Origin: Roseburia rectibacter
GTDB lineage: Bacteria; Bacillota; Clostridia; Lachnospirales; Lachnospiraceae
Assembly: GCF_014287515.2 (NCBI RefSeq)
Contig: NZ_CP092473.1
Coordinates: forward strand, 2,631,001 to 2,695,000
Direction of reading: 5' to 3'
DNA length: 64,000 nucleotides
Made by a program: the position numbers and the translations under genes. Below the pieces are notes generated by a model that did no database searches, was not told where the DNA came from, and saw nothing but the letters and a program-made list of their open reading frames with translations. Shown here piece after piece: positions 15,672-60,029 of the stretch. The stretch's first letter is position 1. Each line of letters starts with the position of its first letter.

Positions 15672-15713
15672 GTTAATCTCCATTCTTATGTGTGAAAAAG
15701 AAGATTTTCACAC
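15672..15713 (-). repeat. Hairpin leader element, copy 1 (before DUF1385)
   Basis: On the gene strand a 9-bp hairpin GTGTGAAAA/TTTTCACAC (15690-15713, six-base loop) is followed by an A-rich spacer and ATGGAGATTAAC, which supplies the ribosome-binding site. Same module as at 19.0, 51.7, 52.1, 53.3 and, in extended form, 56.5 kb. Confidence 0.8.
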
Positions 15714-15769
15714 TGTTTTCCATTCCTGTCGGTTTTCACGAAATTAACGAATAAAATCATCCGACGCTC

Positions 15770-15804
15770 TAAAAAAAGGTTGAGATTAAATAAACCTCAA
15801 CCTT
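15770..15804 (-). terminator. Intrinsic terminator of rpmE
   Basis: A 9-bp stem (15776-15784 with 15796-15804) followed on the minus strand by seven T residues, about 25 bases after the rpmE stop codon. A textbook Rho-independent terminator. Confidence 0.85.
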
Positions 15805-15829
15805 ATCTTTAACCATGTTCACTTGCGTA

Positions 15830-16033
15830 CTATTTGTTAATGCCGTACTTCTTGTTGAACTTATCGATACGTCCGTCAGTTCTTGCAGATTTCTGCTGTC
15901 CTGTGTAGAACGGATGGCATTTGGAACAAATTTCTACGTGGATATCCTCTTTTGTAGAACCTGTTACGAATGTGTTACCGCAGTTACATGTAACTGTTGC
16001 CTGATAATAATCTGGATGGATTCCTTCTCTCAT
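15830..16033 (-). CDS. rpmE: 50S ribosomal protein L31
   Basis: A 67-residue L31 of the zinc-binding type: CNCG and CSKCH supply the four cysteines. L31 bridges the large and small ribosomal subunits. The ATG at 16033 with GAGGTG six bases upstream gives the standard N-terminus MREGIHPDY; an ATG at 16042 is not supported. It lies just downstream of rho on the same strand, the usual Firmicute order, and ends at a strong terminator. The zinc form is typically expressed when zinc is sufficient (family knowledge). Confidence 0.96.
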
Positions 16034-16191
16034 GATTTTCACCTCTTTATGTTCTTATCGTTATTTAGTTTCGCCTGTTCAATCCTTTTATACCCGTATG
16101 CCCGATCCGCATATGGTACTTACTCCAAAGGAAAGTCCCGATAAACAGCTTATTCAGTGTAACATACGATTTCAAAAAAATCAAGATATTT

Positions 16192-17697
16192 TTAAATAAT
16201 TCTGTTCTTTTTTACCATATTAATATATTCGCGATTATTTTTGGTGCGTGCAAACATATTCAAAATATTCTCCACGGCATCATCTTTGCGCATTCCATTG
16301 ATTGCTTTTCGCATGATGTCAACTGCTTCCTGTTCTTCGGAATCAAGCAGCAGATCTTCTCTTCTGGTTCCCGATTTCACGATATCGATTGCCGGAAATA
16401 CACGCTTTTCCGAAAGTTTTCTGTCGAGCACGAGTTCCATGTTACCGGTTCCCTTAAATTCCTCAAATACAACATCATCCATCTTGCTTCCGGTATCAAC
16501 CAGCGCTGTCGCAAGGATTGTAAGGCTTCCTCCCTCACGCATATTTCTCGCTGCACCAAAGAATCTTTTTGGCATATGGAGTGCCGCCGGATCAAGACCT
16601 CCGGATAAGGTACGTCCACTTGGTGGAACCGTAAGGTTATATGCCCTTGCAAGTCTTGTGATACTGTCAAGAAGGATCATGACATCTTTGCCGTGCTCTA
16701 CCAGACGTTTTGCACGGCCAAGCACCATCTCCGATACACGTTTGTGATGTTCCGGGAGTTCATCAAAAGTAGAGTAAATTACCTCAACATTATCGCCCAC
16801 AATGGCTTCCTTGATATCTGTAACCTCCTCCGGTCTCTCATCGATCAGAAGGATGATCAGGTGCATATTCGGATTTCCTGATGTTACTGATTTGGCGATT
16901 TCTTTTAAAAGTGTTGTTTTTCCTGCCTTAGGCTGGGAAACGATCATACCACGCTGTCCCTTACCAATTGGGGAAACAAGATCTACAATACGCATCGCAA
17001 CACTGCATCCCGGGCGTTCTAAACGTATCCTCTCATTCGGAAAAATCGGTGTCAGATCTTCAAAACTTTTTCTCTTCTGGGCTACACTCGGGTGATAGCC
17101 GTTAATTGTAGTCACATATAAAAGTGCCGAAAACTTTTCCTGCTGTGTCTTGATTCTTGTATTACCACAGACAATATCTCCCGTTTTTAAATTAAACTTT
17201 CGGATCTGTGATGGTGAAACATACACATCATGCTCACCCGGAAGATAATTCTCACAGCGGATAAATCCGTATCCATCCGGCATAACCTCTAAAATACCAT
17301 TTGCCGTAATTCCACTGTCAAGACTCATCATGGTATCATCTGCCGCTGCAGATGCCGTCTGATTTTCCTGTGTTTCTACCGGCTCTTCTGCCTTTTCTTT
17401 TGTCTGACGATCTGCATCTGTTCCGCGTTCCCTTGGTACATATTCCGTCCTTTTTCTGGAATATTCTTTCGGCTGTGCATGATCTTTCGAACGCTCTGTG
17501 CCCTCTTTTGCTTTCACACGCTCCCCGCGCTCTTCCTGCGTCTGCATACTCTCCGTCTCTTTTTGTTTGCGTGCATCTTCTTCAAGCATACGATTGACCA
17601 AATCGCTCTTCTTCATGGAAGAAATATTCTTCAGTCCCCGTGCCTTTGCCAGATCACGCAAAACGACTAATGATAAACTCTCATATTTTTCTCTCAT
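16192..17697 (-). CDS. rho: Transcription termination factor Rho
   Basis: A 501-residue hexameric RNA helicase. Residues 1-35 form the Rho N-terminal SAP-like domain. Residues about 40-125 are a charged low-complexity insertion (rich in E, K, R, Q), common in Clostridia. Then come the cold-shock RNA-binding domain (GYGFIRCENYLPGEHDVYVS) and the ATPase with Walker A (QPKAGKTTLL), Walker B (LIDERPEEVTD) and the Q/R-loop regions (RLARAYNLTVPPSGRTLSGG). GGAG lies seven bases before the ATG. It terminates untranslated transcripts and is the first gene of the rho-rpmE pair. Confidence 0.97.
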   Translation of the reverse strand: MREKYESLSLVVLRDLAKARGLKNISSMKKSDLVNRMLEEDARKQKETESMQTQEERGERVKAKEGTERSKDHAQPKEYSRKRTEYVPRERGTDADRQTKEKAEEPVETQENQTASAAADDTMMSLDSGITANGILEVMPDGYGFIRCENYLPGEHDVYVSPSQIRKFNLKTGDIVCGNTRIKTQQEKFSALLYVTTINGYHPSVAQKRKSFEDLTPIFPNERIRLERPGCSVAMRIVDLVSPIGKGQRGMIVSQPKAGKTTLLKEIAKSVTSGNPNMHLIILLIDERPEEVTDIKEAIVGDNVEVIYSTFDELPEHHKRVSEMVLGRAKRLVEHGKDVMILLDSITRLARAYNLTVPPSGRTLSGGLDPAALHMPKRFFGAARNMREGGSLTILATALVDTGSKMDDVVFEEFKGTGNMELVLDRKLSEKRVFPAIDIVKSGTRREDLLLDSEEQEAVDIMRKAINGMRKDDAVENILNMFARTKNNREYINMVKKNRII

Positions 17698-17799
17698 TCA
17701 TAAACTCCTTACTTTTTTCACCTGTTGGAATCGTCTGCGGAAATGATGTCTGATGTGACAATTGAATTTTTCGATGTGGCTATTATACTACATCTTTTT

Positions 17800-18073
17800 C
17801 TAAATAGGAAGTCCTAATTCTTGATTTTTCTCCCTAATCGCAAAAAAGCAGATACTACGAAAATGTTCAAATCCCTGTTCCTGCATATAATAATATACAC
17901 TGTAATAACCGGAAACAGTAAAATCTGCCTTTAATGCCCAGAAACTCATCGATCGATTTCGGCGTGTCTGTAAAACCGGCTTTGTCAAATACCACTTTCT
18001 TGTAGATTAATCCATTTACACAGGCAGATGACATCAAAATGAAAGCTGTAAGAAATGCAGCACTGCACCGCAA
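17800..18073 (-). pseudogene. Remnant of an extracellular solute-binding protein
   Basis: Two overlapping frames on the minus strand together read NGLIYKKVVFDKAGFTDTPK then SIDEFL and, after a frameshift near 17.96 kb, ALKADFTVSGYYSVYYYMQE. The first part matches the hinge segment of sugar-type family 1 binding lipoproteins (NGxxYNKxVFDKAG-type). The signal peptide, most of both lobes and any transporter genes are absent. This is the only recognisable content of the 400-base gap between rho and panE. Confidence 0.6.
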
Positions 18074-18099
18074 TTTGACTTTATTCCCATTCTGTTTTC

Positions 18100-19029
18100 T
18101 TATTTGTAATCAAATTTCCCGTCGTTCTTTTCTTCTAAGGCTTTGATCATATGATAAGTAAACTCATTATACGGTGTAGGAATGCCTAACTCTCTCCCCA
18201 TACGAACGACTGCACCGGCAAACATATCTACCTCTGTGTGACGCTTTGCATCAAGATCCTGAAGCGTGGAATATCTAGCGCGGTCCATGACTTTGCTGCC
18301 AAAGGTTGAGGATGTATCCGATTTGTCAAAATCAATTCCTTTTGCCTTTGCGATCAGATCCACTTCCTCCCTGAGTCTGTCCCGCAAAAATGCCATATGT
18401 TCGCTGTCTTTATAGGCTCCGACGCCACAGCCAACCATAGCCTGCGCCTGATTATTTGGCACATTGAGCCGGAATTTGCTCCAGATTTCCGTAAGGATCA
18501 CATCAGTTGCCCTGTAATGAAGCCCTGTATCCACAAAAAGATCATTTAATGCTTCAACTCTCTCTGTCCCTCTGCTAAGATCTGCTTCCCCGTAGATAAT
18601 GCCGATCGTTGTCTCCGGCTCAAATTTTACATGGTTGCCATCTCTCTCCGATGCCACTTTGATCAGTGAATGTACGATTTTATCAGAAGAGATCACCTCT
18701 GAGATGATCTCCTCACTGTCCACGCCGTTCATCAAGCTGATAACGGTTGTTTTCTCTCCCACCACCGTCCGGATATCCTTTAATGCCGGGCGGAGTGCAT
18801 TGTATTTCATTGCTACGATCAAAAGATCTACGCCGTGTGCCTCCTCAGGTGTTTTTATGACTGGATCGTATCTTTTATCATTGATAAAAAATCCTTCTTT
18901 TTCATAACGTGCTCTGCGTTCTCCTGACGCAACCACACACAGATCAATATCTTTCTTTTGGGTAAGTCCCCAGATGATGTAGGAACCTACTGCTCCTGCT
19001 CCAAGTATTGCAACTGACTGATATTTCAT
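18100..19029 (-). CDS. panE: 2-dehydropantoate 2-reductase (ketopantoate reductase family)
   Basis: About 309 residues. The N-terminal Rossmann fold has the NADPH loop ILGAGAVGSY, and the C-terminal helical domain contains the WSKFRLNVPNNQAQAMVG region of the family's active-site helix (the family lysine-asparagine-rich segment). The reaction reduces 2-dehydropantoate to pantoate for coenzyme A synthesis, though close paralogues act on other 2-keto acids, so the symbol is tentative. The start at 19029 follows GGAG of the repeated leader; an upstream in-frame GTG at 19068 falls inside the leader hairpin. It lies 50 bases after the XRE regulator gene. Confidence 0.85.
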   Translation of the reverse strand: MKYQSVAILGAGAVGSYIIWGLTQKKDIDLCVVASGERRARYEKEGFFINDKRYDPVIKTPEEAHGVDLLIVAMKYNALRPALKDIRTVVGEKTTVISLMNGVDSEEIISEVISSDKIVHSLIKVASERDGNHVKFEPETTIGIIYGEADLSRGTERVEALNDLFVDTGLHYRATDVILTEIWSKFRLNVPNNQAQAMVGCGVGAYKDSEHMAFLRDRLREEVDLIAKAKGIDFDKSDTSSTFGSKVMDRARYSTLQDLDAKRHTEVDMFAGAVVRMGRELGIPTPYNEFTYHMIKALEEKNDGKFDYK

Positions 19030-19070
19030 TTTACTCCATTCCTGCGTGTGAAAAATCTTATTTTTCACAC
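19030..19070 (-). repeat. Hairpin leader element, copy 2 (before panE)
   Basis: An 11-bp stem (19046-19056 with 19060-19070, three-base loop), GTGTGAAAAAT and its complement, then CGCAGGAATGGAGTAAA before the ATG. The stem is identical to copy 6 at 53.3 kb. Confidence 0.8.
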
Positions 19071-19080
19071 TAGCCTGTTT

Positions 19081-20085
19081 TCATTCTATTTTTTTCTTTT
19101 CATTTTGCATGACCGCACGGAAAATACCTGATGCTGCAGCGAAAAGTACCCCTGCCACCGGCCAGATGATCCATGTAAAATCCCAACGCATTGTCCAGAA
19201 ACTCCATCCCAGATAAATTGCAGTGGCAATACACCAGTACGCTCCGCTAAATGCATCTAACTTCTTTTTCAGTTTCTTTTCTGAAATAGTATAATCTCCC
19301 TCCTGCAAAAGAATATCATAACTTCCTTTTATTATACCGACACGGATTATCATATACACGCCACATGCTACCAGAATTAAAAGCAGCGATACAAAGCTGG
19401 TACATACAGCATCCGGTGCATCCATACATGCTGCCACCAAAAGCGGGATTGCCGCAACGATGCAGAGCACCACGCCAACGGCGATTCCTCTGGTAAATGT
19501 TCCCTCATAATTTTTTAATTTTTCCTTTGCAAGCCCTTCTACCCCATAGGCGGTTTCAAAACATTCGTTTTCCAGAAACTCGAATCTTTTTGTCTGCATA
19601 CCGCAGAAAATAAATGTAAATACCGCTGCAGCCACAAATCCAAGCAGGCATACCAGTCCAACCGATGCAGCCACACCCTCGGAAATATTTCCAATCTGCG
19701 CCTCCGATAATCCTGCCAAAAATATCAGAACTGACGGACTGACGATACAGGCTGCAACTGCAGCTGCGATCTTCGGTGCATTTTTCTTCCGGACTTCCAT
19801 AAAATCATTTGCATCTTCCACCGAAACCTTTTTTAATGGAAAATCTTTGTCGGAAGGTTCCACTCCCTCAATGGGCTGCGGTGTCTCACATTCATCTTTT
19901 AAAAGGTAGTCTGTACTCACCCCAAAAATCTCTGACAGCTGGATCACCCTCTGCAGATCCGGTATTGACTGGGCACTCTCCCATTTTGACACCGCCTGTC
20001 TGGAGACGGAAAGTTTCTCTGCCAGTTCTTCCTGCGACCATCCGTTCTTTTTTCGCTCTTCCATAATTTTTTCAGCTAAAATCAT
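19081..20085 (-). CDS. XRE-family transcriptional regulator with C-terminal membrane domain
   Basis: A 334-residue protein. Residues 1-65 are a Cro/C1-type helix-turn-helix ([21 protein letters not shown], a very typical recognition helix), followed by a charged linker and, from about residue 105, five to six hydrophobic helices. Such anchored regulators are common in Firmicutes and often sense membrane or cell-envelope states; the target genes are unknown. It is followed by panE after 50 bases, with a hairpin leader between them. No own operator was recognised in the 170-base upstream gap, which otherwise holds only two TTGACA-like boxes without a convincing -10. Confidence 0.87.
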
Positions 20086-20257
20086 AACTCATCCTCTTTT
20101 CTTTTTCAATGATGTGATCTTTGTTACGCCTCCATCATACCCATTTTGACCGGTTGCAGGCTACCAAATGTGCCTGTCAATCTGTCAATTGATGGTTGCA
20201 ATTCCCGCAATTTAGGCATTTTCCTGTATTTTTTGATCCAGGAACTTTTTATCACTC

Positions 20258-22936
20258 TCACAAACGACCGCCCACTGCAAATTTAGAAAAGCTCTTTGTT
20301 GTAAAGTTCACTGTCTGTTTCTTAGAATCATAATAAGATTTTGAAATCTTTTTGACATTTCCTTTTTTGTTGATGGTGTACGCAAAAAGATCTTTCTTTT
20401 TTTCTTTCTTAGAAATCTTATAATGGATCTTTACGGTAACCTTTCCCTTTTTCAATTTTCCTAACGTTTTTTTCTTTGCACCTGTAACCGAAATTTCATA
20501 CATTGGACGTTTTTTGACAATTTTACCTGCCTTTGAAGAAAGAATGCGTTTATCTAATTTCTTAACATGAAAATACACATCTGAATTCATCTGTTTTTTT
20601 ATTTCTTTTAAGGCATTGCGGTCCATCGTAATTATAACGTTTCCATATTCCAGTTGCAGTGCTTTTGCCTCATTGTCAATAAGACGATTCAACGTTGACT
20701 TACTAACCTTTAAAACCTGCTTTTTCCCTTTCCTGGACTTACATTTTATTCTGACCGTCTTATTTTTTATCTTTTTATCCGGTGTTGGTTTTTCTGTTGT
20801 CGGTTCTTCCGGTGCTGGTTTTTGTGGTGTCGGTTTTTGTGGTGTCGGTTTTTCCGTCGTCGGTTCTTCCGGTTCTTCCGGTGCTTCTAAAGCACCACTT
20901 CCAGTCTGTGTTTTCTTTTCTTTCACAATAACCTGACAGGCAGCTTCACTCCCTGCATAGTTTTTATTGCCATTATATTTTGCGGTAAAAGAATATGTCT
21001 TTGTCTTGTTCGGAAGTGATACCGTCCACTGATCATTTTCCTTCTTAACCAGTGTAATGCTGGAATCATTGCAAGTAATATCCACCGGTTCATCTGCGCT
21101 GATTCCCTGTTTTATAACTTTAAGTGTTACGCTGCCAGCACCCTCTGATCCTGCGGGCGTTGCAAGAAGCTTTAGTTCTGTAACAGCCTTTGTAATTTCC
21201 AAAAATGCCTGCCCATAACAGGATTTTGCAGAATCAGAAGATGCTTCAAAATAAATTGTATATTTACCTGCGTCTGTATAAGCCGGAAGTTCTTCTATTG
21301 TATAAGGTCCGTCCTCCTTCATACTGTATCGAAGATTCACACCCTCCCCTGGTCTAATGTCAAATGTATGCCTGTTTGAATCATACGGCACTGTAACCGG
21401 TCTTGTCGTACACTCTGCTATCTCCTGATCTTCGTCTCCGGAGGAATCATTGTTCTCCTGATAATAATAAACAATGTCCATGCTGTCTTCCGTGATCGTT
21501 ATCTTATCCTGATCCACACTGTTTCCCACACAGGCATAACCGGATAACTCAGGATTTCTTAAGGTATATGTAGAATTGCGTGGTACATGGACAATCGATG
21601 CTTTTGTATTCGGAATATCTGTTTCTGTTCCGTCTTCGTTCTTTAACCGGTAATGAATGTTGACGGTACTCCATGCCTGATTACCTGTTTTATCTGTCGC
21701 TAAAACTTCCTGTGTATCCATGTCCACGATTTTTCCATCCAGTCTGTCACCGTTTGTCAGACCATACACATCATTAAGTACAACGGAAAGAGACTCTCTT
21801 GCAGCATCCGGGTCATAGAAATTTGTAAGGGCTTGGATGGTAAATTCTTTTTCTGCACTATATTTTACCGTTATTCCATCTGCGCCGATAATGCGAAAAC
21901 TCATCTTAAGATGCTGTTCTTTATTCACCATATTTTGTACAACCGTGCGAAATTCCAAATCATGATCATTGGCTTTTGTGATATTAGACTCGGTAATTCT
22001 GTATTTTTCACTGTCTCTGTCAAGTGTCGCGGTTTTGTTATGAGGAATAGAAACTTCAGGATCACTGATATAAAGAGCCGCCGGTTTACTGACATAATCC
22101 GTGTTATTCAGCTTTCTTGCCAGTTCCATTTTGCAGACCTCACAAAACGGCTGTCCGAGCCACCGCATCATACATTCACGACTGGGCGCAAATGCGGTAT
22201 CCGTTCCCGCATTCGTGATTCCGATCCCGCGAAATCCTAACATTTTGCTCCATTTGATTTTCTCCGGATCAGTAGTGTCGGACATATTTGGTTTGTTGGT
22301 ATATCTCTCATATTCATCGCCGAGTCCGCCTATACTATGGGCAGTCTCGTGAGCCATAACCATTCCATCACTATTATCCTCAGAATTTGTAGAAAAAGAA
22401 AATAATGGATTTACTGATGCACCATAGCTTCCTGTATCATTACAAAGTATATGAATCGTTCCAACATTTGCGCCTTCATCCAGATAATTTTCTTCCAGTT
22501 CCGTTCTTAACGCTTTCGCCCTTTCATCCCCGCCATTGGTAAATCCGGCTGCCTTTCCATATACTTTGACATGAAAATATGTATCCGGACTCTTGCCGCC
22601 ATACACTCCAATGCCTGACTCGTTAGAAACTGCCTGCACAGCGTAAATATTAATACGGTCAGAATATTCCCTATATGGTGACCATGTCAGCATTCCACGC
22701 GCCTTTTGAGTGGCATCTTCCAAAAACTGATCCTGCTGACCGGCGGTATATCCATCTCCCATGATCACGATCACAAAGTTTTCTTTATCATCACCAGTCT
22801 TATGAATTACCTGAACCGGAAATGTGGTTTTGGATTTTTCTGTATTTTTTGCCATTACTGTTTGTGGCAAAAGCAGCAGTAACAATAACATCATATAGAT
22901 ACATACTGCTTGTATTCGTTTTGTTTTTCTTTTCAT
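20258..22936 (-). CDS. Secreted M64 (IgA-peptidase-like) metallopeptidase with repeat-rich C-terminus
   Basis: About 892 residues. A lysine-rich start and a long hydrophobic stretch ending in a signal-peptidase site (TVMAKN) direct secretion. The catalytic domain (to about residue 300) begins with the M64 pattern VIVIMGDGYTAGQ and carries the zinc motif HETAHSIGGLGDEY at about residues 196-209. Later parts include bacterial repeat-type domains (a stretch ending in YYYQENNDSSG, an MBG-like AGKYTIYFEA stretch), a proline-rich TTEKPTPQKP-type linker and a basic C-terminal domain. No LPXTG or membrane anchor is visible. The ATG at 22936 has AAAGGTG before it. M64 is the family of Clostridium ramosum IgA protease; substrate specificity here is unknown. 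It follows hsdR by about 50 bases. Confidence 0.87.
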   Translation of the reverse strand: MKRKTKRIQAVCIYMMLLLLLLLPQTVMAKNTEKSKTTFPVQVIHKTGDDKENFVIVIMGDGYTAGQQDQFLEDATQKARGMLTWSPYREYSDRINIYAVQAVSNESGIGVYGGKSPDTYFHVKVYGKAAGFTNGGDERAKALRTELEENYLDEGANVGTIHILCNDTGSYGASVNPLFSFSTNSEDNSDGMVMAHETAHSIGGLGDEYERYTNKPNMSDTTDPEKIKWSKMLGFRGIGITNAGTDTAFAPSRECMMRWLGQPFCEVCKMELARKLNNTDYVSKPAALYISDPEVSIPHNKTATLDRDSEKYRITESNITKANDHDLEFRTVVQNMVNKEQHLKMSFRIIGADGITVKYSAEKEFTIQALTNFYDPDAARESLSVVLNDVYGLTNGDRLDGKIVDMDTQEVLATDKTGNQAWSTVNIHYRLKNEDGTETDIPNTKASIVHVPRNSTYTLRNPELSGYACVGNSVDQDKITITEDSMDIVYYYQENNDSSGDEDQEIAECTTRPVTVPYDSNRHTFDIRPGEGVNLRYSMKEDGPYTIEELPAYTDAGKYTIYFEASSDSAKSCYGQAFLEITKAVTELKLLATPAGSEGAGSVTLKVIKQGISADEPVDITCNDSSITLVKKENDQWTVSLPNKTKTYSFTAKYNGNKNYAGSEAACQVIVKEKKTQTGSGALEAPEEPEEPTTEKPTPQKPTPQKPAPEEPTTEKPTPDKKIKNKTVRIKCKSRKGKKQVLKVSKSTLNRLIDNEAKALQLEYGNVIITMDRNALKEIKKQMNSDVYFHVKKLDKRILSSKAGKIVKKRPMYEISVTGAKKKTLGKLKKGKVTVKIHYKISKKEKKKDLFAYTINKKGNVKKISKSYYDSKKQTVNFTTKSFSKFAVGGRL
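20785..20885 (-). repeat. Proline-threonine-lysine coding repeats in the M64 peptidase
   Basis: Imperfect 12- to 24-base repeats encode alternating EEPTTEKPTP and PQKPTPQKPAP units, a flexible extracellular linker. Such runs are prone to slippage and length variation. Confidence 0.8.
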
Positions 22937-22983
22937 GTACTTCACCTTTTGTTGAATAAGTTTTCTCTTTGCCAGCAGATTTT

Positions 22984-32677: not shown

Positions 32678-32729
32678 TTAAACTCCCTTTCCTGCGCTGC
32701 TTTCTAATGAAAACAAGTTTTGCACACTG
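32678..32729 (-). repeat. Hairpin leader element, copy 3 (diverged, before AIM24)
   Basis: On the gene strand GTGTGCAAAACTTG, a short spacer and AGAAAGCAGCGCAGGAAAGG precede the ribosome-binding site. It aligns with the second half of the extended leaders at 56.5 and 60.0 kb (ACTTG ... GAAAGCAGCGCA), but the GTGTGAAAA hairpin is lost. Confidence 0.55.
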
Positions 32730-49627: not shown

Positions 49628-49659
49628 GGACCAAAAGTTCATCCAAGAACTTTTGGTCC
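49628..49659 (-). terminator. Terminator of the first ABC-F gene
   Basis: A 13-bp perfect stem (49628-49640 with 49647-49659) with a six-base loop, 14 bases after the ABC-F stop codon; followed on the minus strand by TTGTTTATA. The T-run is broken but the stem is strong. Confidence 0.65.
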
Positions 49660-49672
49660 AATTATTTCATAC

Positions 49673-51703: not shown

Positions 51704-51742
51704 ATTAATCTCCATTTCTGCGCGAAATCTTATTTTTCACAC
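51704..51742 (-). repeat. Hairpin leader element, copy 4 (damaged, before ABC-F)
   Basis: The upstream arm GTGTGAAAAATAAGATTT is intact on the gene strand, but the returning arm is shortened (CGCGCAG instead of TTTTTCACACGCAAG), so the hairpin cannot form. The following ATGGAGATTAAT is conserved. Confidence 0.7.
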
Positions 51743-51764
51743 TTACTCCTCTATCTTTGATAGA

Positions 51765-52087: not shown

Positions 52088-52129
52088 ATTAACCCCCTTT
52101 CTTGCGTGTGAAAAAATGTATTTTCACAC
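52088..52129 (-). repeat. Hairpin leader element, copy 5 (before the broken GNAT)
   Basis: A 9-bp hairpin GTGTGAAAA/TTTTCACAC (52106-52129, six-base loop differing from copy 1) followed by CGCAAGAAAGGGGG. A second AATGGAGATTT lies just upstream of the hairpin at about 52129-52140. Confidence 0.75.
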
Positions 52130-52148
52130 AAATCTCCATTCTTTTCCC

Positions 52149-53270
52149 TCACAGCAGCCGAAATACCTGCTCTGCCGTGGCGGCTATATTTTCCATTGCA
52201 TTTTCTTTTTTCATTGCTTCTTCTAATGTTGTCACGCCTCTTACGATCGGGAAAAATGCGTCAATCCCTGCCTGATTACAGACGGAAGCTTCCGGTGCAA
52301 CACTCCCTGCAAATGCGATGACTTTCGCATTATATTTTTTTGCCAGCGCAGCAACACCGACCGGTGCTTTCCCCATAACCGTCTGTGCATCCAGACGTCC
52401 TTCTCCGGTCACCACAACATCCGCATTTTTCATTTTTTCTTCCAGACCGGTTGCCTGCAAAATCAGTTCCACCCCCGGTATTAATTCTCCCGCAAGATAC
52501 GAAAGGAACGCGTATCCGAGTCCTCCCGCTGCACCGGCGCCCTCACAGTCCGCAAAGTCACAGCCTAAACTTTCTTTGGTCACATCCGCATAATGTTTCA
52601 TTGCCTCATCGACCTTAGACTTCTGCTCTTCCGTCACACCTTTTTGTGGTCCAAATATGTAAGTTGCACCCTGTTTGCCGCAAAGCGGATTTTTCACATC
52701 ACAGGCAATCTGAAATTTTGCACCGGAAAGCAGCGAATTTTTATTTTCAGTCCGGATCACCTCAATCTTTGCAAGCGCAGCCGCGCCCTCTCCCACATCA
52801 TTTCCATCTTCATCAAAAAATTCAAATCCAAGCGCCTTTAACATTCCGATGCCGCCATCGTTGGTTGCACTTCCACCAATTCCAATCATGAAATTTTTAC
52901 ATCCTCGTTTCAGGGCATCTGCAATCATCTCCCCCACTCCATAGGTAGATGCACGCAGCGGATCTTTCTTTATCACAAGCGTGATTCCCGCAGCAGATGC
53001 CATTTCCATGACAGCCGTTTTTGTCTCTTCTAAAAAACCGTAATAACACGACACTTTTTCTCCAAGCGGTCCTGCCACGGTAACCGGTATTTTTTCTGCT
53101 CCCAAGCCTTCGATCAATGCATCCACGGTTCCTTCACCGCCATCTGCGAGTGGACTTAACCATACTTCTGCATCTGGTTTTGCTGCCAGAATTCCTTTCT
53201 TTACAGCATTTCCAGCCTCCATGGACGTCATGCTTCCCTTAAATGAATCGATTGCTGCTACTACTTTCAT
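52149..53270 (-). CDS. Glycerate kinase (GarK/GlxK family)
   Basis: A 373-residue kinase of the type I glycerate kinase family, converting D-glycerate to 2- or 3-phosphoglycerate with ATP. Signatures: MKVVAAIDSFKGSMTSMEAG at the start (family substrate loop), PLADGGEGT, GIGGSATNDGG and GEGRLDAQT. The start at 53270 follows GGAG of the hairpin leader; the ORF could extend to 53282 within the leader. It lies about 70 bases after the SpoU methylase gene on the same strand, with no functional link apparent. Confidence 0.94.
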   Translation of the reverse strand: MKVVAAIDSFKGSMTSMEAGNAVKKGILAAKPDAEVWLSPLADGGEGTVDALIEGLGAEKIPVTVAGPLGEKVSCYYGFLEETKTAVMEMASAAGITLVIKKDPLRASTYGVGEMIADALKRGCKNFMIGIGGSATNDGGIGMLKALGFEFFDEDGNDVGEGAAALAKIEVIRTENKNSLLSGAKFQIACDVKNPLCGKQGATYIFGPQKGVTEEQKSKVDEAMKHYADVTKESLGCDFADCEGAGAAGGLGYAFLSYLAGELIPGVELILQATGLEEKMKNADVVVTGEGRLDAQTVMGKAPVGVAALAKKYNAKVIAFAGSVAPEASVCNQAGIDAFFPIVRGVTTLEEAMKKENAMENIAATAEQVFRLL

Positions 53271-53313
53271 ATAAATCTCCATTCTTGCGTGTGAAAAATC
53301 TTATTTTTCACAC
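53271..53313 (-). repeat. Hairpin leader element, copy 6 (before glycerate kinase)
   Basis: The cleanest copy: an 11-bp stem (53289-53299 with 53303-53313), three-base loop AAG on the gene strand, then GCAAGAATGGAGATTTAT before the ATG. Stem and loop are identical to copy 2. Confidence 0.85.
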
Positions 53314-53341
53314 TTCCATCTTTCTCTAAGAAGTTAGTTTG

Positions 53342-54280
53342 TTACTGTTCGCACTTCATCCCAAGCTGCCAGAATGCCACCGCACTTGCAGCCGCCACGT
53401 TCAGTGAATCCACACCATGTGTCATCGGAATTTTCACCGTATAGTCACAGTCTGCGATCGTGTGATCTGCCAGTCCGTCACCTTCCGTTCCGAGAACGAT
53501 TGCTAACTTTTCCTCCGCCATCATTTTTTCATCATCTATACTCACGGAGTCATCCCGAAGTGCCATTGCCGCCGTTTTATATCCCAGCTTATGCAGCACA
53601 TCCATCGCACCGTCCGGCCAGCATGCATTTTTATCAAAATATGTCCACGGTATCTGGAATACTGTTCCCATGCTGACACGGCTTGCTCTCCGGTACAGCG
53701 GATCTGCACAGGCTGATGTCAAAAGAACTGCATCCATTCCAAGTGCCGCCGCAGAACGGAAAATTGCTCCGACATTTGTTGGATTTACCACATTTTCCAA
53801 AATTGCAACACGCCTTGCATTCTTGCAGATCTGCTCCACCGAAGGCAGTGTGGGACGGTACATGGCACATAGCATGCCGCGTGTCAGCTGATAGCCGGTG
53901 ATCTTTGCCAGCACCTCGATTTCTGCAATGTAGACGGGAATCTCACACTCTGCTGTGCAGACTGGAATATCATGCTCCGCCGCCATGCTTGAATTTCCAT
54001 TCTCTGCTTCCATCTTGTCTGTCTGTTTGATGTCCTGGCTTTGTAATTTTTCGCAGCGCGCAAGAATTTCTTTTGCCTGCGTCTTTACATGCTTTTTTTC
54101 CATCAGAAATGACATCGGCACACAGCCGGCATCTAAGGCACGCTTGATCACCTTCGGACTTTCCGCAATGAAAATCCCCGGCTTCGGCTCAAAATAGTGA
54201 AAAAGCTGTGCTTCATTTAAATTGTAATAAATCTGCAGCTCCGGGGCATCCAGATCTTTGATTTCTATAATATTTATCAT
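53342..54280 (-). CDS. SpoU/TrmH-family RNA methyltransferase
   Basis: A 312-residue SPOUT methyltransferase. Residues about 15-95 form an L30e-like substrate-binding domain with an inserted charged and cysteine-containing segment (residues about 95-120, CTAECEIPVYIAE). The knotted catalytic domain shows the three family motifs: NVVNPTNVGAIFRSA, LGTEGDGL and SLNVAAASAVAFW. It 2'-O-methylates a ribose in rRNA or tRNA using SAM; the target is unknown. An extended -10 (TGGTATAAT) lies about 60 bases before the ATG. Confidence 0.92.
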   Translation of the reverse strand: MINIIEIKDLDAPELQIYYNLNEAQLFHYFEPKPGIFIAESPKVIKRALDAGCVPMSFLMEKKHVKTQAKEILARCEKLQSQDIKQTDKMEAENGNSSMAAEHDIPVCTAECEIPVYIAEIEVLAKITGYQLTRGMLCAMYRPTLPSVEQICKNARRVAILENVVNPTNVGAIFRSAAALGMDAVLLTSACADPLYRRASRVSMGTVFQIPWTYFDKNACWPDGAMDVLHKLGYKTAAMALRDDSVSIDDEKMMAEEKLAIVLGTEGDGLADHTIADCDYTVKIPMTHGVDSLNVAAASAVAFWQLGMKCEQ

Positions 54281-54338
54281 TGTATTCCTCTTTTCTCTCC
54301 TGTATCAGCGATTGAGCATATGGCAGATAAATTCATTG

Positions 54339-54368
54339 ATTATACCATGTGCAAAATGGCATATGATC
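54339..54368 (-). promoter_or_regulatory. Extended -10 promoter with palindromic element, shared with glnS
   Basis: On the minus strand an imperfect inverted repeat (GATCATATGCC ... GCACATGG) leads directly into TGGTATAAT, a perfect extended -10. The sequence matches the glnS leader element at 11641-11671 at 25 of about 31 positions. Confidence 0.55.
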
Positions 54369-54849
54369 AAATTTCAAGCCGGAAAAGAATTCTTCCCTCC
54401 TCAAGCTCTCCCCAACAATTTACCGGCGGCTCCTTCGTTTCTTTAAATCCACAATCCGAATGCATTTTTATTTATGATAAATTACTTTTTCCTATAATGC
54501 AATCTATCTTTTTTGCGCCTGTGCCTTTCAAAAACTCCGTTACATGACGTATCAGTTTTTTACCATATCCTCTGTTTCTCTGCCCCGGCCTCGTCTCAAC
54601 TGCCTCAAAAAACCATTTCCCCGGCTCTGACTCAACTGCCCTGAGTCCGCATACCCACTGTTTTTCTACAGTTTCAACAAACACCATCTGCTTTGGATTT
54701 TCGATAAACTCCTTTAAAAACGCCGCATATGATGCCTCCATTTCATCACGATTTTTAAATTTCCCCTCCATATCCGCCATGGATTCTGCATATAATAAAA
54801 ACATTTTTTTTATTACCTGTTCATTTACATTTTCAATCCGTTCTAACAT
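54367..54849 (-). pseudogene. GNAT acetyltransferase with an internal stop codon
   Basis: The first 125 codons (MLERIENVNEQVIKKMFLLY ... TRPGQRNRGYGKKLIRHV) form the N-terminal and acetyl-CoA-binding part of a GNAT enzyme with the R/Q-x-x-G-x-G/A loop. A TAA at 54472-54474 stops it after GKSNLS, yet the same frame continues for 34 codons with a typical GNAT C-terminus (IKMHSDCGFKETKEPPVNCW, then GELEEGRILFRLEI) and a second stop. One base change would restore a 160-residue protein. A truncated 125-residue product lacks the last strands and is probably inactive. Confidence 0.85.
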
Positions 54850-54902
54850 TTTTTATCCTCCTCTTCTGATCGCCAGATTACAAAAACGGTCGGATCACAG
54901 CT

Positions 54903-56486
54903 TTACAGTTCCACAACACGCGTTGCGATTTTCTCCTGAAACCTGATATCATGATCGACAAGGATCATGGTCGGCTGATACCGAAGGATCAGCTGCTCGA
55001 TCTGCATTCTTGAAAAAACATCAATATAGTTGAGCGGTTCATCCCAGATGTACACATGTGCCGGTGTCATCAGACTCGCGGCAATCAGTACTTTTTTCTT
55101 CTGCCCCTCCGAAAACTCTTCGAGTCTTTTCTCAAATTGTGTCCGTTCCATGTCAAGCTGGCGCAGTAATGCAAAAAATAAACTTTCTTCTAAATTTCTT
55201 TCCCTGCAAAAATCTCTGATATCACCACGCAGAAAGCTGGTATCCTGATTAATATATGACACCACCAGATTAGAAGCTGTTCGGATTTCTCCGTCTGTCA
55301 CAAGCAATTTTGCATAACTGCTGCCTGACTGCTGTGTATTGATCTGCTGCACATTTTTCATCTCATAACCTGCCTGTCCGATATTTACCTGCTGCAGAAT
55401 CGTCTTGATCAGCGTCGATTTTCCACATCCGTTTTCTCCATGTAAAAAGACACGCTCCCCCTGCACCAGTTCAAAGGTCAGATTTTTCAATACATTGTCC
55501 TCTGCACCTTCATACCGCACCGAAAGTTCCTGGCAGGAAATCAGACGTTCCTTATGATAGGAAAGCGGCATAATTTTTAAACTGACAGGCTGTTCAATAT
55601 CCTGCAAAAGCCCCTCTTTCTCCTGTATTTTCCTCTCCATCCGGCGTTCATACTGTGTCACACGGCTCTGCATCTTTTTTGTCTTGGCACCGATATATGC
55701 TCTCGTTGCACCCGAGCGGTCATGCTCTTTGACCGGATCATAGCCTATTTTCGTCGCTTCGTTTTTATCCGCCCACTTTCGGCTTCTTGCCGCCGCCTGT
55801 TTTAAAGATGCGATTTCTTTCAAATGTTTTTCATTTTCCTCCATCGCAAAATGATCCATCCGCGTCTTGTTTTCCCACCAGCTTGAAAAATTGCCGCTCT
55901 GTACCTCGATCGTCTTTCGATTTAAAACCAGTACATGATCAATGCATGCATCTAAAATATCCCTGTCATGCGATATCAGGATAAACCCTTTTTTGCCGCA
56001 CAGATATTCTTTCACACATTCCCTTGCATGCATGTCCAAATGATTCGTTGGCTCATCGATCAGCAGAAAATCATTTTCCCCGGAAAACAGCACCGCAAGA
56101 AGTACTTTTGTCTGCTCTCCATGACTTAAACTTTTAAATGGACGGTATAATAACTCTGCATCCGCATGCAGCTTTCCAAGTTCTACGATCACGCGCCATT
56201 CTTCACATCCCGGTTTTACTTCTTCTAAAAACAAGGATGCACAATTTTCCCTTTGTTTTTCAGATATCTGATATGGAAAGTAATCAAACACTGCAGACGA
56301 TGTGATATTCCCCTCATATTTATATTTTCCACGCAGCAAATTTAAAAAAGTTGTTTTTCCTTTTCCATTTCTCCCGATCAGACCTAACTTCCAGTCCGTA
56401 TCAATCCCAAAAGATACGTTTTCAAAAACCGTATCAAAACTTCCCTCATAACCATATGTGAGATCTGTTACCTGAATCTGTGACAT
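54903..56486 (-). CDS. ABC-F ATPase of the Lsa type (ribosome-protection candidate)
   Basis: About 527 residues, two ABC cassettes. The N-terminus SQIQVTDLTYGYEGSFDTVF and the phrase FGIDTDWKLGLIGRNGKGKT are hallmarks of the Lsa group, whose members dislodge lincosamides, pleuromutilins and streptogramin A from the ribosome. Cassette 1: GRNGKGKTT, SLSHGEQTK, DEPTNHLD. The linker (KQAAARSRKWADKNEATKIG, then DRSGATRAYIGAKTKKMQSR) matches the antibiotic-resistance domain region. Cassette 2: GENGCGKST, FSEGQKKK, DEPLNYID. Resistance is an inference. A long leader with a short ORF and a terminator lies upstream, and the start follows an extended hairpin leader. Confidence 0.88.
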   Translation of the reverse strand: MSQIQVTDLTYGYEGSFDTVFENVSFGIDTDWKLGLIGRNGKGKTTFLNLLRGKYKYEGNITSSAVFDYFPYQISEKQRENCASLFLEEVKPGCEEWRVIVELGKLHADAELLYRPFKSLSHGEQTKVLLAVLFSGENDFLLIDEPTNHLDMHARECVKEYLCGKKGFILISHDRDILDACIDHVLVLNRKTIEVQSGNFSSWWENKTRMDHFAMEENEKHLKEIASLKQAAARSRKWADKNEATKIGYDPVKEHDRSGATRAYIGAKTKKMQSRVTQYERRMERKIQEKEGLLQDIEQPVSLKIMPLSYHKERLISCQELSVRYEGAEDNVLKNLTFELVQGERVFLHGENGCGKSTLIKTILQQVNIGQAGYEMKNVQQINTQQSGSSYAKLLVTDGEIRTASNLVVSYINQDTSFLRGDIRDFCRERNLEESLFFALLRQLDMERTQFEKRLEEFSEGQKKKVLIAASLMTPAHVYIWDEPLNYIDVFSRMQIEQLILRYQPTMILVDHDIRFQEKIATRVVEL

Positions 56487-56575
56487 AAAAATCTCCATTC
56501 TTGCGCTGCTTTCAAGCGCATCTCAAGTTTGTGCGTAAGCACAAATCTTGCGTGAGAAAAATGTATTTTTCACAC
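56487..56575 (-). repeat. Hairpin leader element, copy 7 (extended, before the Lsa-like gene)
   Basis: Three hairpins in series on the gene strand: GTGTGAAAAAT with ATTTTTCTCAC (one mismatch), TTTGTGC/GCACAAA, and GCGCT/AGCGC, each ending in a GCAAGA or GCGCAAGA step, then ATGGAGATTTTT and the ATG. It shows the modular nature of the family: the short copies equal the first hairpin plus the last GCAAGAATGGAG step. Confidence 0.8.
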
Positions 56576-56663
56576 TAGCCTCATTGTTTTGCGAAGGAAA
56601 ATGCATGCTATGTTTCTTATAGCATTTGCCTCTTGCAGGAGCAGAGGATTTTCCTCCCATACA

Positions 56664-56691
56664 AAAAATCCCATGCTGCCATGGGATTTTT
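56664..56691 (-). terminator. Intrinsic terminator in the leader of the Lsa-like gene (attenuator candidate)
   Basis: A 12-bp perfect stem (56664-56675 with 56680-56691) and a four-base loop, followed on the minus strand by TTTTTT. It lies about 180 bases upstream of the ABC-F start codon and about 380 bases downstream of the predicted promoter, between promoter and gene. It can also act on the plus strand. A smaller hairpin (ATGCTAT/ATAGCAT) lies at about 56607-56627. Confidence 0.8.
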
Positions 56692-57031
56692 CTTACACCT
56701 CACATATTTTATGATCACATCTGGCAGACAATAGATTGCACATTGTAAGATAAAATCGATTGTCCCGGACAACAAAATGTCCGTTTCCGCCATTTTTTAA
56801 CACAAAAAAGAGAGGATACAAGAATCAAATCCACTTTTGGCAACATGATATGCCGTACTGCACCTCTGCAATACTGCTGTAACTTCAGATTTACACAACA
56901 TATCATGCACTTTATTCCTTATACCGGTGCAATATATGCCATGTATCATCCCGAATCAGCAGACAAACGCATGCCATATATGACACACATTCTCTTGCTG
57001 ACTCTGTTTTCTTTCATGTTTCAAAAGTAAA

Positions 57032-57043
57032 TTATCTCCGCAT
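57032..57043 (-). CDS. Three-codon upstream ORF (Met-Arg-Arg-stop)
   Basis: ATG CGG AGA TAA on the minus strand, preceded by AAAGGAGAGG at an ideal distance, starting about 23 bases after the predicted transcription start. Too short to be a gene product by itself; a translated leader peptide for attenuation is the natural reading. It could also be the relic of a deleted gene. The rest of 56.70-57.03 kb has no recognisable gene; a few hairpins (for example CGGACA/TGTCCG near 56.77 kb) are seen. Confidence 0.55.
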   Translation of the reverse strand: MRR

Positions 57044-57072
57044 TGGTTCCTCTCCTTTAAATTTCTATTGCA

Positions 57073-57101
57073 ATAGTAGCACAATGCCATTTTTAATGCA
57101 A
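57073..57101 (-). promoter_or_regulatory. Promoter of the Lsa-like ABC-F leader
   Basis: On the minus strand -35 TTGCAT (57101-57096) and -10 TACTAT (57078-57073), 17 bases apart, start near 57066. The only gene downstream before the next promoter is the Lsa-like ABC-F at 56486, giving a leader of about 580 bases. Confidence 0.7.
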
Positions 57102-57165
57102 CCAAAAATTTTTACGAAAAATCTTTCGTTACCGGTCACACAATAAATATGCACAGCAGCAATCT

Positions 57166-59967
57166 CTACTCCACATTTTTGAGTGCCTGATCCATCGGGA
57201 TCTTTTTGATACGCATAAAGTCCAGTATCATTACAAACAGATATCCGATCAGCACAAATGCAAACATTTTCACATATCCGGCTGGCTGGATCACAAATGC
57301 AAACCATCCACTGTAACTAAACAAGATCGCTTTCCATGCCAGATTCATAACAAACGCTCCAAATACAACACTGACCGCATCTTCGATCACAACCACGATC
57401 GTTGTGGAAAGCAGATACAGGCTGGCGATTTCTTTATTCTCATATCCAAGAATCTTTGTCATTGAAATTGCATTCTCATTTTTCTCAATGATCAGCTTTG
57501 TCAGAAGATAGATCAAAACTGCGGAAAGCAGGATACAAAGTATCTGGAAATAATCCATATAAGATCCCATGGAATGATCTAACTGGTCACACATCTTTGT
57601 GATATCACGCTCGGTGATCACCGTTGCAATATCATCTTCCGACAGATCTGCAAGCTCTTCATTTGAAAAATATCCACTAAATGCCTCTTCATCCAGCTCA
57701 AATACCATGCGGTAATTTTCAATCGGCATAAATACTGCAATGTTTACGCACTGGTCATAAATTCCGGCTATCGTAAACGTATACTGTTTGTTTTCATATT
57801 TTTCATCCAGTGAAACGGTATCCCCGACATTAAGTTCATATTTTTCTGAAAATGATCTGGAAATATAAACTTCATCTTCCTGCAGGGACTGCATACCTTT
57901 TATTTCTACATACTTACTATTGTCTGAAATACCGTAAACAGAGACTTCCTCATCTATTACATCGCTTTTTTTCTGCAAAGAACACATACTGAATTTTTCT
58001 GCGTCTTTATTGTCCGTCGTCAGTACATTTCCATCTTCATCCTCAAAAGATTTCAGAACATACTGATACTTTGCAAACATCATATTTTTTGCATTTTCTT
58101 TGTAATAAGAAAGCGTATCCGGCATTCCCACTGCCATTGCAAGCATCACCATGATAAAGAAAATTCCCACAAACAGAATCAGATAATTTGCCACATTCTG
58201 AAACATGATGCGCAGACGGAATCTGTTAAAAAATTTAAAATGTGGCAGCCGCATTGCTTTTTTGCGTTTTGTTTTTTTCAGATCATGCCTCAGAAACTGT
58301 AACGGTGTATGCTGCATCATTTTAATAATGACGATCAGATTGACCATAAACATCAGCACGACCGGTATCAGGGTTGTCTTAAAAAATGCATCCGGATTCC
58401 AGATCGTCTCATAGGTCGGAAGGCTGTAACTGTTATAATACATGGATACCACAACATCTTTAAATACCGTATAGCCAAGCACATTTCCGACTAATGCGGA
58501 AATCAGGGTAACGATAACCGGCATAGACAGATAATGGCGTACCAGCTCCCCTTTCGTATAGCCGGACGCACGCAATGTTCCGATTGTAGATGACTCTTTT
58601 GTGATCGTATTGCTGATCGTAACTGCAAAAATAAATGCGATGATGACAATCAGAATATCAAGCAGCACACCTCCCATTGCCTCATCAGAGCCCATGTCGT
58701 CGGTTGCAAAATGAATCGCCGGATTCGCATATTTTGGCACATAATCTTCAATCTCATTGTCATTTACCACGGTCTGTGTGAGCAACGCCCGCATAAAATC
58801 ATCCGACTGGTTTTTCTCTTCTTTTTCATCTGACGGCTCATTTTCATACTTCCATGCATAATCGTAATGAATCGTCTTATGTAACTTTGCAAATCCCTCA
58901 TCTGTTACCATTGCAACATTAAACTTTAAGGCATCAAACATCAGATCCGTGCTTTTTTCGTGCAGTGTGGAATAGTTGACATATGCGATCAGACCAACGA
59001 CCTGATATTTTTCTTCTCCGACTGTGATCTCATCGCCGACTTTTATCCCGACATTGTCAGCATGCATACGGTCAATGGCAATTTCATCCTCTTTTTCCGG
59101 GAAACTTCCGTCCATCAGGCATGCAAGATTGATATCATCTGTCTTTGCAAAAACACGGACTGTTCCATCCGAAGTTCCGTCGTTGTCATGATCTTCCTCT
59201 TCATCCCTGTAAAAATTTTCATACAGATGAACCGGAGTTTCCTTAAAATCAGGATCGTTCAATTCATATTTTTCTTCTGCATCCGCATATTTCTCATTGA
59301 TCTCATCTAAAACCTTGTTCCAGGCTTCGTCGTATGCTTTCTCATATGCCTCGTCATGTGCCTCATCAAACGCTTTCTCATACGCCTCGTCATGTGCCTT
59401 AGGATATGCTTTTTCATACGCTGTATCATAGGCTTTGTTGTACTGCCTGGACTGTTTTGCCTGTGCTACTGCTGTATCAAGCATAACTCCCGCAGTTGTT
59501 TCATCAAGTCCCTGCGCCATCAGCATCTGCTTTATCTGTGCATTAAAAGAAACATCAAATTCTGACTGGAACTCTGCATCAAATTTTTCCTTAAATTCTG
59601 TTTCAAACTTCTCATCAAATTCTTTTTTGAACTTTTCTTCAAATTCACTATCGAACTTTTTATCCAGCTTCTTTTTTGCCTCATCAATGTAATACTGTCT
59701 GACATCTGCTTTATCGCCTGTCTTAATTGCATCAAGCAGTGTTTCGTCTGCTTTCTTTTTTAATTCAAAGTGTCCGTCTTCCAGCTTGTATCTGCCAACA
59801 CCCTCATCAGCCGCTGTCATCATGCTCTCGTTTGCAACATACATGCCGGACACAAAGCCGATCATCAGAATCAGGAACAGACTTACCACAAGATACTTTT
59901 TCCAGTCTCCTGTCAGTTCCCTCGGTATTCGTCTGATAAGCGGATTTTTGATTTTTTTCTTTTTCAT
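57166..59967 (-). CDS. MacB/FtsX-like ABC transporter permease with aromatic tetrapeptide repeats
   Basis: A 933-residue permease. A first helix (residues 25-43) is followed by a large extracytoplasmic region, then two FtsX domains with three helices each (about 430-560 and 800-930) separated by a second extracytoplasmic domain, with one further helix pair near 590-640. Residues 105-141 carry phenylalanine at every fourth position ten times, and residues 176-216 carry Y, F, H or W at every fourth position eleven times, with charged residues between. The start at 59967 follows GGAG of a hairpin leader; the longer frame to 60036 overlaps the upstream gene. It pairs with the ATPase encoded directly upstream. 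Such pairs export peptides or lipids or act as mechanotransmission units. Confidence 0.88.
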   Translation of the reverse strand: MKKKKIKNPLIRRIPRELTGDWKKYLVVSLFLILMIGFVSGMYVANESMMTAADEGVGRYKLEDGHFELKKKADETLLDAIKTGDKADVRQYYIDEAKKKLDKKFDSEFEEKFKKEFDEKFETEFKEKFDAEFQSEFDVSFNAQIKQMLMAQGLDETTAGVMLDTAVAQAKQSRQYNKAYDTAYEKAYPKAHDEAYEKAFDEAHDEAYEKAYDEAWNKVLDEINEKYADAEEKYELNDPDFKETPVHLYENFYRDEEEDHDNDGTSDGTVRVFAKTDDINLACLMDGSFPEKEDEIAIDRMHADNVGIKVGDEITVGEEKYQVVGLIAYVNYSTLHEKSTDLMFDALKFNVAMVTDEGFAKLHKTIHYDYAWKYENEPSDEKEEKNQSDDFMRALLTQTVVNDNEIEDYVPKYANPAIHFATDDMGSDEAMGGVLLDILIVIIAFIFAVTISNTITKESSTIGTLRASGYTKGELVRHYLSMPVIVTLISALVGNVLGYTVFKDVVVSMYYNSYSLPTYETIWNPDAFFKTTLIPVVLMFMVNLIVIIKMMQHTPLQFLRHDLKKTKRKKAMRLPHFKFFNRFRLRIMFQNVANYLILFVGIFFIMVMLAMAVGMPDTLSYYKENAKNMMFAKYQYVLKSFEDEDGNVLTTDNKDAEKFSMCSLQKKSDVIDEEVSVYGISDNSKYVEIKGMQSLQEDEVYISRSFSEKYELNVGDTVSLDEKYENKQYTFTIAGIYDQCVNIAVFMPIENYRMVFELDEEAFSGYFSNEELADLSEDDIATVITERDITKMCDQLDHSMGSYMDYFQILCILLSAVLIYLLTKLIIEKNENAISMTKILGYENKEIASLYLLSTTIVVVIEDAVSVVFGAFVMNLAWKAILFSYSGWFAFVIQPAGYVKMFAFVLIGYLFVMILDFMRIKKIPMDQALKNVE
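59320..59442 (-). repeat. Coding repeats: xxA(Y/F/H/W) tetrapeptides in the permease
   Basis: Encodes residues 176-216, eleven consecutive four-residue units such as EKAY, DEAH, EKAF and DEAW. The DNA shows near-perfect 12- and 24-base repeats (for example around 59330-59400). Confidence 0.85.
59545..59667 (-). repeat. Coding repeats: xxxF tetrapeptides in the permease
   Basis: Encodes residues 101-141 with phenylalanine at 105, 109, 113, 117, 121, 125, 129, 133, 137 and 141 and mostly E, K and D between. Confidence 0.85.
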
Positions 59968-60029
59968 ACTAATCTCCATTCTTGCGCTGTTTTTAAGCGC
60001 ATCACAAGTTTGTACGCCAATACAGCTTC
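59968..60029 (-). repeat. Hairpin leader element, copy 8 (extended, between ATPase and permease)
   Basis: On the gene strand ACAAACTTGTGAT, GCGCTTAAAAACAGCGC and AAGAATGGAGATTAGT precede the ATG, matching the second half of copy 7. The first hairpin is replaced by the end of the upstream ATPase gene. Confidence 0.75.

Follow-up and report, generated by a model that had tools for sequence, protein, structure and literature searches.

Leaders in the window

We analysed a stretch of 64,000 nucleotides (nt) from Roseburia rectibacter (contig NZ_CP092473.1, positions 2,631,001 to 2,695,000; hereafter the window), in which eight genes on the minus strand are each preceded by a leader of one or more hairpins with a Shine-Dalgarno (SD) sequence at its 3′ end. 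The gene products identified are DUF1385, PanE, an ABC-F protein, glycerate kinase, a second ABC-F protein, an FtsX permease and AIM24, together with PrfA at a possible ninth, weak copy. A preliminary description had listed eight leaders, and direct reading found all of them: a hairpin, an AATGGAG-like tail and a start codon at the DUF1385, panE, ABC-F, broken GNAT and glycerate kinase genes, a three-hairpin form at the Lsa-like ABC-F gene, the 3′ half of this form at the FtsX gene and a diverged 3′ half at the AIM24 gene (Table 1). Some details needed correction, as the exact tails are ATAAGAATGGAG for DUF1385 and GCAAGAAAGGGG for GNAT, the spacing between SD and start codon in panE is 4 nt instead of 6 nt, and the ABC-F hairpin, which had been called damaged, still has, by reading, a potential 8-bp stem that includes G-U pairs; the differing sequence at this place in the nearest genome, G001, also pairs. 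The element is not a terminator, as had been stated, because by reading (no terminator scan was run) the hairpins continue into the next module or the SD and no T-run follows.

A bare 12-mer with 2 mismatches was not enriched in the window (12 matches versus 8.98 expected), but the hairpin and model searches show enrichment, and chance was rejected as an explanation. The Lsa leader had an E-value of 7e-18 with covariance model R1, which was built including that leader, and of 3.9e-14 with model R2, which was built without it but from copies found by R1. The short copies score weakly with R2 (panE 4.5e-05, glycerate kinase 8.2e-05, GNAT 0.0077, DUF1385 0.074 and ABC-F 0.12), and the AIM24 leader was missed by the models at E-values up to 1 (R1) and up to 10 (R2).

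Table 1. Leaders and related features of the window, with positions counted from its first letter
Feature	Position	Strand	Start codon	Remarks
Candidate weak copy, prfA	13802..13835	-	13796	by reading; models R1 and R2 do not list it
Short form (hairpin A and SD), DUF1385	15678..15713	-	15671	identical in G001
Short form, panE	19034..19070	-	19029	
Diverged 3′ half, AIM24	32683..32727	-	32677	by reading; gene is PF01987
Short form, ABC-F	51710..51742	-	51703	
Short form, broken GNAT	52094..52129	-	52087	
Second AAGAATGGAG directly 5′ of the GNAT-leader hairpin	52134-52143	-		
Short form, glycerate kinase	53277..53313	-	53270	
Long form (hairpins A, B and C and SD), Lsa-like ABC-F	56493..56576	-	56486	
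3′ half (end of B, hairpin C and SD), FtsX permease	59974..60035	-	59967	

Anatomy and distribution of the leader

G001 has 42% of sampled 31-mers in common with the window and is 83–99% identical to it in pieces. The hairpin A pattern (at most 3 mismatches) occurs at 39 places in this genome, compared with 0 and 1 for the reversed control, and two model searches gave 46 or 43 matches, with about 50 copies all told. The unit runs from hairpin A through hairpin B to hairpin C, a pseudoknot (in many lineages) or both, and then to the SD, a spacer mostly of 6 nt and the start codon; in the pseudoknot the loop of hairpin B pairs with the 8–9 bases directly 5′ of the SD. In the G001 consensus of the long form, hairpin A has 11 bp and a 3-nt loop, hairpin B reads CAAGA-TTTGTGC...GCACAAA-CTTG, hairpin C reads TGCGC...GCGCA, and ARGAATGGAG, 6 nt and the start codon complete the unit. 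Conservation at the right end is moderate through ATTA, after which come two variable bases and ATG. Short forms consist of hairpin A and the SD (37 nt), further variants are without part of hairpin C or have an added hairpin, and in some copies of genome G236 an unrelated palindrome replaces or joins hairpin A. In a shorter lineage (L057, L065, L235 and L386), hairpins A and B are followed by GGAAAGGCATGG or a similar sequence and by the start, and GCAGG is a possible pairing partner of the B loop CCTGC. G001 also contains a few leaders that belong to other lineages (L288 and L395), and L395, which precedes a dihydrofolate reductase gene, has by eye an 8-bp match between loop and 3′ strand that spans a long insert.

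The structured leader is real and occurs in a minority of the sampled Lachnospiraceae genomes. R1 matched 9 of 40 relatives, each of them one of the 24 that belong to the genus, and it matched 20 in a draw of 299 genomes from the whole family; the broader R2 matched 32 of 397 family genomes and 1 of 398 genomes across the phylum, namely G001, in a draw that included only a few of the family. Because no more than 15 or 10 candidates per genome were scored in the family and phylum scans, these scans give minimum copy numbers. When named genomes were scanned with a pattern, at least 114 stretches matched; among the 80 listed, the titles were mostly Lachnospiraceae, Roseburia, Acetatifactor and Lachnospira, the others being unplaced Clostridia or bacteria, a Eubacterium, ‘Lactobacillus rogosae’ and a ‘Bacteroides’ bin. 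The record titled ‘uncultured Bacteroides’ (L156, L159, L171 and L188) carries leaders, and because it has a leader gene with 95% identity to a leader gene of genome G823, this title is doubtful and the bin is probably mislabelled. The whole data set holds 230 copies under 70 genome labels, which stand for family f1 or for named records mostly titled Lachnospiraceae, a few of which may duplicate one genome. Sequence differs between species and the fold is retained; the copies are dispersed and species-specific, with a median identity of 0.74 within a genome versus 0.68 between genomes. Rfam gave 0 matches in the window at gathering scores and 0 in 20 relative loci at E≤0.5, and no description of this leader was found in a literature search covering titles and abstract openings. 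Plasmids had no match to one 90-base query, phages had two weak matches without annotation, and viral contigs had one match to one pattern, which was assessed by reading only.

Orientation and anchoring at start codons

As the preliminary description had proposed, copies are oriented with the gene and anchored at its start codon, rather than randomly oriented and remote from starts. Among model-found copies outside G001 and the window, which were counted without a start-codon filter, 183 of 211 adjoin the start of an open reading frame (ORF) of 50 or more codons, 128 at exactly 6 nt. By genome, this was the case for 15/15 copies in G012, 19/23 in G024 (23 of 27 matches examined), 17/17 in G236 (17 of 27 examined) and 8/9 in G007, and some of the 28 copies without an ORF start are upstream members of tandem arrays or lie close to a contig end. 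In an earlier mixed set, 131 of 149 copies faced a start codon versus 943 of 2980 random points on the same strand, and on the opposite strand a start was present at the same distance in 12 of 149. The G001 counts in this earlier set lean towards anchored copies, because a filter applied to G001 discarded every hairpin that no SD and start codon followed, which left 36 of 39 places; the places that passed were the source of alignment A1 and of the short G001 copies. Outside the filter, L016 has no start codon, L036 and L040 have an SD and ATG by eye, and L017 was dropped as the same place as L016.

The spacing between SD and start codon is also narrow, being 6 nt in 138 of 190 leaders versus 18% of 253 other genes, which show a broad distribution with 28% at 7 nt. 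In 151 of 192 copies the likely start shares its reading frame with the AUG of AAUGRRG, and therefore ORF callers can add about four residues; the ORF calls at window positions 15683, 53282 and 56498 begin four codons early, at the AUG within AAUGGAG.

Covariation of the fold

Stems without covariation, as expected of recently duplicated junk sequence, had been named among the observations that would refute the preliminary reading, and the stems do covary. For G001 and the window, two-sided changes were found in 6 of 27 pairs versus 1.6 in shuffles. Across 54 copies they were found in 19 of 27 pairs versus 11.0 shuffled and in 148 cells versus 32.6, with a covariation score of 0.330 versus 0.110, and pairing was 96.6% versus 33–52% when the structure was slid; the 54-copy alignment was fitted to the structure, which is a bias in its favour, whereas alignments A5 and A6 were made by MAFFT without structure. 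A1 comprises 22 long copies, A2 comprises 54 matches of 54 sources, A5 comprises 24 copies under 15 labels that were chosen by loop shape rather than complementarity, and A6, the long-loop class, comprises 35 of 39 copies after exclusion by eye of L248, L299, L304 and L307 (L299 and L304 are without a clear 3′ strand).

The pseudoknot was 96.8% paired in A5, where 3 of 9 pairs changed on both sides, with 13 such cells versus 5.3 in shuffles, and at one position UA occurs in 11, GC in 9 and AU in 2 of the 24 copies and the pair is broken in 2. In A6 it was 97.5% paired with 4 two-sided cells versus 1.1 in shuffles, and its 3 changed pairs were reached by 28 of 500 shuffles. Hairpin C does covary (GCGC/GCGC versus GCCC/GGGC) in the main G001 lineage, whose B loop is short. 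When loop pairing was compared over the whole set, runs of 7 bp or more occurred in 123 of 230 own versus 743 of 2300 swapped combinations, and in a control that combined rare 3′ strands with common loops, runs of 6 bp or more were as frequent (1107 of 1610) as in own pairs (103 of 161) and gave no support for pairing. These early effects were modest because loops share CUGCGC across species, and the aligned A5 test is clearer. GU cells exceeded AC cells over all copies (211 versus 131) and in the A6 pseudoknot (29 versus 6), with 2 versus 4 in A5; the overall excess speaks for the sense RNA as the strand that folds, a reading qualified by the relatedness of the copies. Structure, orientation and anchoring of the leader are firm.

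Turnover of occupied genes and traces of a probable insertion

A second GGAG or GAGG lies 2–6 nt 5′ of hairpin A in 128 of 257 copies, with a peak at 4 nt, and a second SD within 14 nt of hairpin A was found for 85 of 149 copies versus 726 of 7450 random points. The distribution of this gap, when shifted by 3 nt, resembles by eye that of native SD-to-start spacings, as if the leader had entered ∼3 nt 5′ of the start codon. Moreover, the first 4 nt after the left and the right SD are identical in 14 of 77 copies versus 5.9% of same-genome swaps, tandem cases being counted, and in tandem or nested cases the new copy lies ∼4–6 nt after the SD of the older copy. Nested neighbours in G823 (L287) and L153 are only 49% and 68% identical and thus are not simple local duplications; the neighbours at L179, L185 and L148 are up to 98–99% identical and may be local duplications. 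From these sequence traces it appears well supported that the leader entered a few bases 5′ of start codons that already existed and brought an SD to replace the native one.

The leader genes are unrelated and few orthologues are shared by the genomes that were compared, so that there is no constant downstream gene function as in riboswitches or ribosomal leaders. Pfam confirmed DnaA, adenylate kinase, a fabD-type acyl transferase, SNO/PdxT, PanB, ArgJ and dihydrofolate reductase among the leader genes of G001, and chaperonin, flagellin and FtsA among those of G236. At 50% or more protein identity, the 40 leader genes of G001 had 0 in common with the 19 of G024, 1 with the 15 of G012, 0 with the 8 of G007 and 0 with the 16 of G823. 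Among 27 readable fabD loci (loci from 30 of 46 matching genomes) only that of G001 has the leader, and for DUF1385 it was found in 3 of 30 loci (30 of 58 matches; G001, G863 and G831), each time of a different lineage by eye. In addition, for 28 of the 33 G001 copies that could be tested, an open frame of 80 or more codons running in the same direction ends within 200 nt upstream, and action is therefore likely to be post-transcriptional.

Candidate partner genes were also searched for. No Y1 transposase was found in G007, G012, G016 and G020, and G024 has no more than a 36-residue fragment, whereas the transposase is present in G004, G013 and G014, where R1 finds no leader; not all genomes in this comparison are complete. 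Reverse transcriptase does not track the leader either, with 0 in G024 (27 copies) and in G020. A gene for CsrA occurs in 31 of 40 genomes, with and without the leader, and is uninformative.

A proposed spreading ribosome-binding-site cassette and its alternatives

The explanation that we are inclined to accept, as somewhat better than an even chance, is that the leaders are copies of a spreading, structured ribosome-binding site (RBS) cassette of Lachnospiraceae, which acts as RNA at translation. A copy would land ∼2–3 nt 5′ of an existing start codon, between the start codon and the native SD and in the orientation of the gene, and would bring an SD (AAUGGAG/AAUGAGG) to replace the native one, with a narrow spacing that is mostly 6 nt, which would keep the gene translatable, even in the case of a core gene in mid-operon. 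The RNA is predicted to fold into hairpin A and hairpin B, and the B loop would form a pseudoknot with 8–9 nt 5′ of the SD in many lineages; the weaker hairpin C would use the same 3′ strand and may substitute for the pseudoknot in the main G001 lineage. Because the 3′ strand is shared, two states are possible. Neither the pseudoknot nor hairpin C includes the SD, which lies directly beside them, and the fold therefore probably modulates initiation without burying the SD. Such a fold may tune how readily ribosomes reach the SD, with insulation or stabilisation of the downstream cistron as a further possible effect, and on this basis of sequence and fold we infer an effect on translation.

The preliminary description had suggested a mobile 5′ untranslated region or RBS cassette. 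Turnover of occupied genes, nested copies of unlike lineages and the second SD support this suggestion, and several observations weigh against it. Comparison of the window with G001 showed no clean empty site: both carry the leaders of DUF1385, ABC-F, GNAT, glycerate kinase and Lsa, panE and its leader (window 18065-19079) are missing together from G001, where ∼9 bases lie between the flanks, and the FtsX gene of G001 starts without a leader through a rearrangement, its leader standing before another gene (at G001 3063328-3064884 versus window 59961-59975, ∼1.5 kb extra lies between the leader SD and FtsX, and the breakpoint is at the SD). Any movement must therefore be slow or old. Among the 230 leader genes, 8 groups at 50% or more identity recur across genomes, a count that excludes two groups common to the window and G001, has no null behind it and comes from many genomes sampled in part; glycerate kinase is one recurring group (G001, the window and QKDK01). 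No mobiliser was found in the Y1 transposase and reverse transcriptase searches, although a lost or distant one is possible. Target sites are not generally duplicated in full (the longest word in common is 5.3 own versus 4.8 swapped), 115 of 257 copies have no GGAG or GAGG within 20 nt left of hairpin A, and the 6-nt spacing is not universal, with only 1 of 8 in G007. Presence of the SD is partly built in, as the models and the pattern include it. Finally, hairpin C alone, though formable, shows no covariation beyond shuffles in the pseudoknot classes (A5 and A6), and loop pairing over the whole set is weak, with own pairing above that of the median swap in 131 of 224. As a separate observation, upstream of the Lsa leader (window 56660, L102) G001 has ∼100–130 bases of palindrome-rich DNA that are missing from the window.

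An alternative that we consider unlikely is that the leader is the binding site of a trans-acting post-transcriptional regulator, either a protein or a small RNA, with a fast-rewiring regulon that is spread by selection and not selfishly. Selection on the fold, the pairing of the ABC-F site in both strains despite several changes, the frequent location behind a co-directional frame and the recurrence of a few genes across genomes would all be consistent with such a regulator, but the occupied genes are unrelated and rarely common to the compared genomes, the sequences are species-specific, and CsrA, the obvious candidate, occurs both with and without the leader. It is more doubtful still that the leader is a plain selfish repeat moved as single-stranded hairpins, in the style of IS200/IS605 insertion sequences or REPINs (see below), with position and orientation reflecting only target choice or survival; palindromic hairpins, fixed orientation, multiple copies and nesting fit this possibility, whereas the failure of the Y1 transposase to track the leader, the excess of GU over AC on the sense strand (A5 being the exception) and the pseudoknot adjoining the SD do not. 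An element of mRNA processing or stability, in which RNases would cut the hairpins or be kept off by them, so that the downstream cistron receives a defined 5′ end, seems least probable, because alone it leaves the pseudoknot, the narrow spacing and the SD unexplained, although it would suit the frequent position behind a co-directional open frame, and cleavage in transcripts is reported for ERIC (enterobacterial repetitive intergenic consensus) and Correia repeats (PMC3049150).

Comparison with known systems

The spreading RBS cassette that we favour resembles miniature inverted-repeat transposable elements and BOX-like repeats in being multi-copy, dispersed and species-specific; such repeats have no fixed orientation relative to genes, which the leader does have. 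Repetitive extragenic palindromic (REP) sequences and REPINs, the hairpins composed of them, are short hairpin repeats in species-specific families that occur with RAYT (Y1) transposases. The leader is likewise a short hairpin repeat in species-specific families, but is without a consistent Y1 partner and stands in a single orientation and place with respect to genes. BOX elements of Streptococcus pneumoniae are also modular, multi-copy, folded short repeats with low mobility that can alter expression of the next gene, but they are not locked to the start codon (16 lie between convergent genes and 70 upstream of a coding sequence), and the part of the source at hand makes no mention of BOX bringing an SD at fixed spacing (PMC3049150). 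The TAACTGA repeats of marine Beggiatoaceae precede many genes without common function, in forward orientation just 5′ of start codons, and a translational role has been proposed for them; they are simple heptamer arrays of which ∼10% have an SD, whereas the leader has a covarying fold that carries its own SD (PMC4679880). With riboswitches and ribosomal leaders our leader has in common a conserved fold with covariation, and with translational riboswitches containing H-type pseudoknots a pseudoknot beside the SD, but it differs from the riboswitches in its tens of copies before unrelated genes, its species-specific sequence and the little conservation of the genes.

Implications

We see it as possible, though somewhat short of an even chance, that the leader represents a new class of genetic element, a mobile RBS cassette targeting start codons, which would enter a few bases 5′ of them and exchange the SD, and by which even core genes (dnaA, adk, fabD-type and groEL) would stay translatable and come under a shared RNA switch of pseudoknot versus hairpin C and the translation of tens of genes per genome would be rewired in a species-specific manner. 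To our knowledge, known interspersed repeats occupy many places between genes. The leader confuses gene calling, and it precedes core genes, those for DnaA, adenylate kinase and chaperonin, in Roseburia and its relatives. If our explanation is true, a repeat at the start codon that carries an RBS would be a ready-made route to rewire the translation of many genes at once.

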